Shown here: one piece after another, positions 17,274-39,474 of the stretch | Position numbering within the stretch: position 1 is the stretch's first letter | Layout of the letters: each line of letters starts with the position of its first letter | NCBI RefSeq assembly: GCF_000014945.1 | Contig: NC_008553.1 | Location: 62,001 to 126,000, forward strand | DNA length: 64,000 nucleotides | Direction: 5' to 3' | Source of the DNA: Methanothrix thermoacetophila PT | Lineage (GTDB): Archaea > Halobacteriota > Methanosarcinia > Methanotrichales > Methanotrichaceae | The notes under the pieces: model-generated | What the model saw: only the letters and a program-made list of their open reading frames with translations | Database searches by the model: none | Told to the model about the DNA's origin: nothing | Made by a program: the position numbers and the translations under genes

Positions 17274-17536
17274 GCGAGATACCTACATGGATATGCGTTA
17301 TAAAACTTGCTCAGGGCATAAGTGGGACGGGAGATCTCGGGTCGCGTGTGTGCTCTATTGTGTAATCAATAGCAAGTGACATCGCAGGGTTCATGGGTAT
17401 GGCAGAGAACATCGAGTCCCGACTGACCGCTCAGCAATTTGAGTCCAGCATTCCCGTAAACCGGTCGTATAATCGTTCGTATAATCGTATCGCTCTTATC
17501 CATATAATGACTTTCCTGGAATGACGATGGCCCCGG

Positions 17537-17625
17537 CATGCGTTCTTGGAGAATGAATGAGTGCTTCCAGCAACTGGACTACATGTCCTCTAAGTTGCTG
17601 AACACACAAGAGCGAATCGTATTAC
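17537..17625 (+). repeat. dispersed repeat B, copy 1
   Basis: CATGCGTTCTTGG, AATGAATGAGTGCTTCCAGCA and ACACACAAGAGCGAATC align block by block with 22998-23086 (plus) and 20594-20677 (minus). No coding capacity. Confidence 0.7.
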
Positions 17626-17676
17626 TGAAATTACTGAAAGATTCTGTGGAATCGACAGACTGGACGAGATATTCTG

Positions 17677-17790
17677 GGTCGTGGACCCGTATCACTGAAT
17701 AATTAGCTATGATCGAGAGCCATGGGTGGGATATCCCATGAATCTAGATGTCTCAAGCGCTCCAGATTTCAATGAATCAAGTACACGACC
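17677..17790 (+). mobile_element. 114-bp MITE with terminal inverted repeats, copy 1
   Basis: The 114 bp are, base for base, the reverse complement of 39247-39360. Ends are imperfect inverted repeats (GGTCGTGGAC at the left; complement of the right end GGTCGTGTAC), matching at about 17 of 23 positions. It is flanked by a perfect 8-bp direct duplication, ATATTCTG (17669-17676 and 17791-17798), the mark of transposition. It is too short to encode a transposase, so a non-autonomous element; no parent insertion sequence is in the window. Confidence 0.9.
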
Positions 17791-17950
17791 ATATTCTGCG
17801 TATCTGATGGATTGAGTTTGCAACCTACAATGAGACAAACACACAACCCGTTAACCGCCAGGCACATAAGGTCAAAGGTTTCAAGACCGAATACATCTGC
17901 TGCTATGGGAAAATTTGATATACATGATTGGCAGTAGGAGTAACCGGGAT

Positions 17951-18074
17951 GGGCGTGTGGCCTAGCCAGGAGCACTGGCCGGTGGCCTTGTTCCCTAGAA
18001 GCTGTATTAGCTAGCAAGGATATGGCGGCAGCCTCCTAAGCTGTAAGCCGGGGGTTCGAATCCCTCCACGCCCG
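17951..18074 (+). tRNA. tRNA-Arg(CCT) with a 48-49 nt insertion in the D-loop
   Basis: Acceptor halves GGGCGTG and CACGCCC pair, discriminator G at 18074. Anticodon arm GCAGC-CTCCTAA-GCTGT gives anticodon CCT (Arg). T-arm GGGGG-TTCGAAT-CCCTC. The D-arm runs from GCC (17960-17962) to GGC (18023-18025) but is split by about 48 nt (near 17969-18016). Removing it gives a normal 75-76 nt tRNA. Exon CTAGC (17962-17966) can pair with GCTAG (18010-18014) next to each junction with 3-nt flanks, resembling part of a bulge-helix-bulge splice motif; the outer helices are weak. The anticodon loop has no intron. Confidence 0.85.
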
Positions 18075-18257
18075 CTTTTCTCTACACACGGGAGCTGTAT
18101 TCCGTTGAGCTGTGCCCGAGCATTTACATCGTCGATATCGTGAATCTCCTCCGGCTGTTGCTCGGGGAACGATCAACAGCCTGCATAGGACCCCGCGGCT
18201 TTGATCTGGTTCGACAGCTTTTTATGCTGTTGAATAAAGCCCCGAGCAGGGAGAGAA
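18075..18257. other. tRNA-Arg to secreted-protein spacer
   Basis: No gene is seen. AGCTTTTTATGCTG near 18217-18230 is the best TATA-like box for the gene at 18258, and CAGGGAGAG (18247-18255) is its ribosome site. Confidence 0.4.
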
Positions 18258-20593: not shown

Positions 20594-20677
20594 CTATTTC
20601 GCTCATATGTGCGTGGCAACTTGTAGGACATGCGATGTGTTTGGTGATAGCAATCATTCATTCGACACGAACGCATA
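20594..20677 (-). repeat. dispersed repeat B, copy 2
   Basis: Read on the minus strand: TATGCGTTCGTGTCGAATGA, ACACATCGCATGTCC and CACGCACATATGAGCGAA, matching 22998-23086 block for block. Confidence 0.75.
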
Positions 20678-20940
20678 GCATGACCACTGCTACTTCGGGC
20701 AAGTCATCAAATGGATAAGAGCGAACTATTTAAGCAATGATGCTGATCTGCATCGATCCTGGCGGAAATAATCCACATGAAATACAATCCACATATCAAT
20801 ACGCCTGGAAATTTTGAGACGACTTCATACACAAGAGCGATTGTGTGCTGCACAGCAGGTCATGGCTCCAGAGCGCAACTGATAGTGTGATCAGGAAAAT
20901 ATTAGTACGTCTCCACAGAAGAGTCATACCGGGTTACATT
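20678..20940. other. upstream region of cbiQ
   Basis: No gene supported. GATAAGAGCGAACTATTTAAG (about 20714-20734) and ACACAAGAGCGATTGTGTG (about 20830-20848) look like fragments of repeat B. The second half is probably the cbiQ leader. Confidence 0.35.
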
Positions 20941-22896: not shown

Positions 22897-22960
22897 AAGC
22901 CAGAAATCTGTGCCTTACTGTTTTTGGCTCTCAGAGGCACCTGATAATTACGTCTCTCAT
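22897..22960 (-). repeat. dispersed repeat A, degenerate copy
   Basis: The minus strand has CCAAAAACAGTAAGGCACAG and TTTCTGGCTT in the same order as the copy at 53149-53231. The terminal inverted ends are eroded. Confidence 0.5.
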
Positions 22961-22997
22961 CCATCTGATACTTTGCCCGGAGCGGCACCGGTCCTGG

Positions 22998-23086
22998 TAT
23001 GCATTCGCGGCGTATGAACGAGTGCTTTCAGCAACCACATCGCATGCCCTGCAAGTCGATACGCACATAAGAGCGAATCATTATTC
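22998..23086 (+). repeat. dispersed repeat B, copy 3
   Basis: TATGCATTCGCGGCGTATGA, ACGAGTGCTTTCAGCAACC, ACATCGCATGCCCTGCAAGT and ACGCACATAAGAGCGAATC, aligning with 17537-17625 and the reverse of 20594-20677. TTATTCGGACATG just after it resembles an end of repeat A. Confidence 0.75.
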
Positions 23087-39157: not shown

Positions 39158-39246
39158 CCCGTAACGCAGATGCGGATCTCATTATATCTAAGTTTTGAGG
39201 GGATGCGGTACACATGCTTCACACAGAGATCCACACAAAGATTCTC

Positions 39247-39360
39247 GGTCGTGTACTTGATTCATTGAAATCTGGAGCGCTTGAGACATCTAGATTCATG
39301 GGATATCCCACCCATGGCTCTCGATCATAGCTAATTATTCAGTGATACGGGTCCACGACC
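39247..39360 (-). mobile_element. 114-bp MITE, copy 2 (inverted, identical)
   Basis: All 114 bp are identical to the reverse complement of 17677-17790. Here the flanks (AGATTCTC left, ATTATTCTC right) share only ATTCTC, so the target duplication is imperfect or lost. The right end lies 127 bp from the leuA ATG, where it may supply or interrupt control sequence. Confidence 0.88.
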
Positions 39361-39474
39361 ATTATTCTCAGCATACTCCATGTGATGCTCCTGAAACAGG
39401 TGGAGATTCTGAGATCTTACACCCAAACCGTCAGATTTATCAATGTGCATCATAAACGTAGCTGAACCGCATTT

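Follow-up and report, generated by a model that had tools for sequence, protein, structure and literature searches.

A sequence of 114 bp occurs twice, without a single difference, in the 64,000-nucleotide stretch of Methanothrix thermoacetophila PT analysed here (the window; G000:C1:62001-126000, in a closed genome of 1,879,471 bp), and this raises the question of what the repeat is and how it came to lie at both places. An earlier note on this DNA had taken it for a non-autonomous transposon with an 8-bp target duplication, moved recently and probably in trans. The repeat structure that it described is confirmed in every particular: the two copies are identical at 114/114 positions in opposite orientation, their inverted ends are 23 nt long and imperfect (74% complementary), and an exact 8-bp direct repeat, ATATTCTG, flanks copy 1 (Table 1). 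The element is short and carries no transposase gene, six-frame translation showing no usable frame. Copy 2 lacks an exact duplication: the sequences on its two sides, AAGATTCTC and ATTATTCTC, agree at 7 of 9 positions. Both copies are intergenic; the neighbours of copy 1 are a TPR-repeat gene and a tRNA gene, those of copy 2 a radical-SAM gene and a gene for a LeuA-type synthase. A tRNA gene at window ~17950-18075 apparently contains an intron; it was missed by ARAGORN and matched only partially by Rfam.

Table 1. Copies, ends and flanks of the 114-bp element, and copies of a second repeat family, in window coordinates
Feature	Position	Strand	Detail
MITE copy 1	17677..17790	+	114 bp, without useful ORF
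Left terminal inverted repeat, copy 1	17677..17699	+	GGTCGTGGACCCGTATCACTGAA
Right terminal inverted repeat, copy 1	17768..17790	-	GGTCGTGTACTTGATTCATTGAA (as - strand)
Left target-site duplication, copy 1	17669..17676	unstranded	ATATTCTG
Right target-site duplication, copy 1	17791..17798	unstranded	ATATTCTG
MITE copy 2	39247..39360	-	inverted, identical to copy 1
Left flank, copy 2	39238..39246	unstranded	AAGATTCTC; imperfect 9-bp duplication (7/9)
Right flank, copy 2	39361..39369	unstranded	ATTATTCTC; imperfect 9-bp duplication (7/9)
Second repeat family, copy	17491-17614		~124 bp; target-site duplication 17483-17490 / 17615-17622
Second repeat family, further copy	20600-20723		
Second repeat family, further copy	22954-23075		

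The further genomic copies that the earlier note had proposed to look for do exist, and given these the pair in the window belongs to a family far beyond chance. Five copies in the genome, both window copies included, share at least 96% identity, and dozens of others are older; besides the window pair there are three copies with 96-98% identity, another with 84% and several with 74-79%, and BLAST places the element at 16 positions in all. A 23-base end pattern, allowing up to 3 mismatches, matches the genome 46 times against 3 for a control. Matches to the element's DNA were found in 6/6 genomes of the genus and in 0/35 genomes outside it, and the end pattern occurs 18-89 times per genome across the genus, per-genome copy counts resting on such matches and draft genomes under-representing IS copies. 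Named records with the end pattern are metagenome-assembled genomes (MAGs) of Methanothrix and one MAG labelled 'Euryarchaeota archaeon'; a plasmid collection searched with the element gave no match. Two variants present in both window copies are missing from the three next-closest copies, so copies 1 and 2 are sisters.

These elements carry a clear signature of transposition. Among 61 elements from five genomes, compared at duplication lengths of 4-12 bp, mean flank identity rises sharply to 0.60 at 8 bp (random pairs, 0.27), while at lengths 4-7 and 9-12 it lies at 25-32%, against 23-27% for random pairs. At least 7 of 8 flanking positions match in 21 of the 61 elements, where the random frequency is ~0.001, and at least 6 of 8 match in 31, where 0.33 elements would be expected; at 9 bp, three elements reach at least 7 of 9 against 0.13 expected, and copy 2 of the window is one of them. 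Another copy (genome 981026-981140, L020) is bounded by an exact duplication of TACAATCC, and its flanks, joined without the element, align to a paralogous stretch beside L005 where TACAATCC stands once; this stretch is an empty site, and the insertion at L020 was clean. Neither window locus behaves as a static sequence conserved in outgroups, the alternative that the earlier note had named: about 97 and 122 bp separate the conserved flanks of locus 1 in two congeners (G002 and G004), and three congeners have a shorter neighbourhood without the element at locus 2, where the innermost flanks are too diverged for exact placement of the target. In two further congeners (G005 and G003) other family-like insertions lie at locus 1, which makes the stretch upstream of the tRNA gene a repeated target. 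Because it forms a multicopy family, is flanked by 8-bp duplications and has an empty site with a clean insertion, the 114-bp repeat is a miniature inverted-repeat transposable element (MITE), a gene-less transposon of the non-autonomous kind that the earlier note had proposed.

The ends of the element indicate its partner. A GGT tip, an inner TCA[CT]TGAA motif and an 8-bp duplication together suggest the IS1 family, and a PF03400 search showed that many relatives, within the family and within the class, encode IS1-type transposases. Those of the same taxonomic family belong to elements of about 1.17-1.23 kb in which a zinc-finger frame overlaps a DDE frame; L189 and L167 score over the PF03400 cut-off and L174 just under it, while NF033558 is the best NCBIfam match for these transposases, yet remains below its own cut-off. 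IS1-family ends in related genera read GGTCGTGTA...TCA[CT]TGAA, and several of the same-family elements begin with GGTCGTG. L167 (ends GGTCGTGTATGTAACTTAATGAAAAG / GGTCGTGTATGTAATTCACTGAATTGG), L174 (end ..GGTCGTGTATGTAATTTATTGAATTGG) and L189 (ends GGTCGTGTCCACCGGAAACTGAAA / GGTCGTGTCCACCACTTACTGAAC) have in common GGTCGTGT and, at the offset seen in the MITE, [ACT]TGAA, and L173, with an end GGTCGTGACTTAG.., is flanked by an exact 8-bp duplication, CACGAATG. Judged by sequence, then, the MITE shares its ends with the putatively autonomous L167, L174 and L189. The likeness between the MITE and IS1 is confined to these ends.

A closer match is found within the genus itself, where a custom profile detected an IS1 transposase remnant in a congener, G001. 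The remnant consists of the last 27 transposase codons, a TGA stop and then the IS end; its reading frame, RTPTMAEGLTDHVWTLKELMMFRIPIQ-stop, is 70% identical to that of L189, and its end, TTCAATGAATCAAGTACACGACC (L054:1501-1523), is identical to the right end of the MITE over 23/23 bp. As in L167 and L189, the stop codon falls within the terminal repeat. Since transposase-coding sequence abuts the end, the remnant is not itself a MITE. At L054:1337-1523 a decayed MITE of the family directly adjoins the remnant, as if inserted into the old IS. No intact IS1 with exactly both MITE ends was found in the genus. The insertion sequence with the same ends and 8-bp duplications that the earlier note had suggested seeking is thus represented by the IS1 elements of related genera and by this remnant; no counterpart was found in the genome of the window.

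We hypothesize, with a probability of roughly 0.9, that this genus-wide MITE family descended from an IS1-family insertion sequence and was mobilised in trans by it. The parent would have had terminal repeats of the form GGTCGTGTAC-N6-TCA[CT]TGAA, or close to it; its DDE transposase would bind the MITE at its two ~23-bp ends and join these to a target cleaved with a stagger of 8 bp, occasionally 9 bp, and the direct repeats would arise as the host repaired the resulting gaps. In the genome of the window the autonomous partner seems to have disappeared since, and what remains is five young copies, nearly identical, and many older ones that have decayed. Two profile searches of this closed genome, with PF03400 and with the custom profile, returned no IS1 transposase, so the family is probably an orphan there now; counterpoints to an IS1 origin are that the young copies now stand without a visible mover, that no intact IS1 with both MITE ends was found in the genus, and that MITE and IS1 resemble each other at the ends only. 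Mobilisation in trans, which the earlier note had thought probable, is supported by the matching IS1 ends, whereas the transposase expected elsewhere in the same genome was not found and the process perhaps belongs only to the past. It appears that the transposase was lost after a recent burst, or that some of the identity among copies arose by gene conversion.

The second of these bears on the timing of the window copies, and is compatible with their being MITEs: two older insertions may have been homogenised by conversion instead of one having jumped recently. The flanks of copy 2 are just 7/9 alike beside a body with 0/114 changes, and a decayed duplication next to an unchanged body favours some conversion; the two variants confined to copies 1 and 2 among the young copies point the same way. 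The duplication of copy 1 is nonetheless perfect (8/8), an imperfect duplication may have been so from the start, and three congeners have no element at locus 2, so that we regard conversion as the full explanation of the identity as possible, though unlikely. The zero divergence from which the earlier note had deduced recent movement is real, but it is insufficient by itself, because copy 2 has a duplication that has decayed, or one of 9 bp carrying two changes, and its body may have been converted from copy 1.

Much less probable is that some other resident transposase moved the family. One candidate is an active 988-bp IS5-type element: no other IS with near-identical copies was found in such abundance in the genome, its duplications are mostly 8 bp, and a loose nGYYGTGT pattern is common to its tips and those of the MITE. 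Its ends (TGCTGTGTTGGATAA), however, differ from those of the MITE (GGTCGTGTACTTGAT), exactly TGCTGTGTTGGATAA ends belong to a separate MITE that is nested in copies of the GGTCGTG family in G004, and the genomes richest in family ends, G001 and G004, have no PF01609 transposase. A variant in which the family kept transposing after the loss of IS1 by means of such a non-cognate IS5-type transposase, with only the tip pattern and the 8-bp stagger in common, seems to us equally improbable. Among other candidates, IS1595, ISL3 and IS256 transposases had no matches in the genome, the three resident PF01609 elements (988 bp, 1727 bp and ~870 bp) have mismatching ends, none of the 46 end matches bounds a full-length IS with GGTCGTG ends, and an apparent 2.16-kb pair (938991/941152) resolved into two separate MITEs around an unrelated IS. 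Least credible of all is the reading that duplication spread a structured RNA or a regulatory hairpin whose inverted ends were kept for RNA pairing. The minus strand does fold well (z = -4.2) and both window copies are intergenic, but across 17 family members compensatory change was seen in 0/21 predicted pairs with an unfavourable covariation term, Rfam gave no match to the element at its gathering threshold, and transposition is needed to explain the 8-bp duplications and the empty sites.

Other repeats accompany the family. The 988-bp IS5-type element is present in 9 copies (L057-L065) that are 99.4-100% identical, and one of them, L063, splits a copy of the ~870-bp IS. The second repeat family of Table 1 has ends CGCTCTTATCC../..AAGAGCG and an exact 8-bp duplication, AATCGTAT; it is the more abundant, with many copies in most genomes of the genus. 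A third MITE family has ends TGCTGTGTTGGATA(A/G), the same as those of the resident 988-bp element. Nested MITEs occur at L134:344-584 and L136:987-1226 (both in G004) and at L133:326-573, and both a third-family MITE and a second-family copy were found nested inside GGTCGTG-family elements. Repeats or IS copies at G000:C1 1644063, 1650948 and 1657833, and again at 1646955 and 1653840, lie at an exact spacing of 6,885 bp, suggesting a tandemly repeated unit of ~6.9 kb. The GGTCGTG family and the second, more abundant one account for some of the intergenic DNA in Methanothrix.

While MITEs are a known kind of element, the Methanothrix family seems to be a new member; literature searches on the genus together with MITEs or IS elements found no account of it, although an ISfinder name may exist. 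It resembles the IS1 family (InsA/InsB', DDE, with archaeal members) in its GGT tips and inner TCA[CT]TGAA motif, in a duplication of 8 and occasionally 9 bp, and in the 23/23-bp identity of its end with the transposase-bearing remnant of the genus, but differs in being 114 bp long, in lacking a transposase gene and in being alike at the ends only. As in the archaeal MITEs of Kamoun et al. 2013 (PMC3852290), its members are short, gene-less and multicopy, and have only their ends in common with the partner IS. None of the 18 new archaeal MITEs in Table 4 of that study was assigned to IS1 and none came from Methanothrix, so that the present family extends the archaeal catalogue by an IS1-linked MITE; few archaeal cases are named in a 2024 review of prokaryotic MITEs (PMC10969869). 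Unlike the 19 archaeal 'MITE-like' repeats for which Kamoun et al. found no partner (PMC3852290), a problem thereby left open, this genus-wide family can be assigned a partner family, and the G001 remnant, with its stop codon inside the right repeat, shows a way to recognise partners after the IS has decayed. The ERIC, Correia and RUP repeats are also imperfect palindromes of ~100-130 bp that occur in tens of intergenic copies. Correia and RUP repeats duplicate TA, and to our knowledge ERIC has no agreed transposase. The Methanothrix element, unlike all three, has an 8-bp duplication and an IS1 partner.
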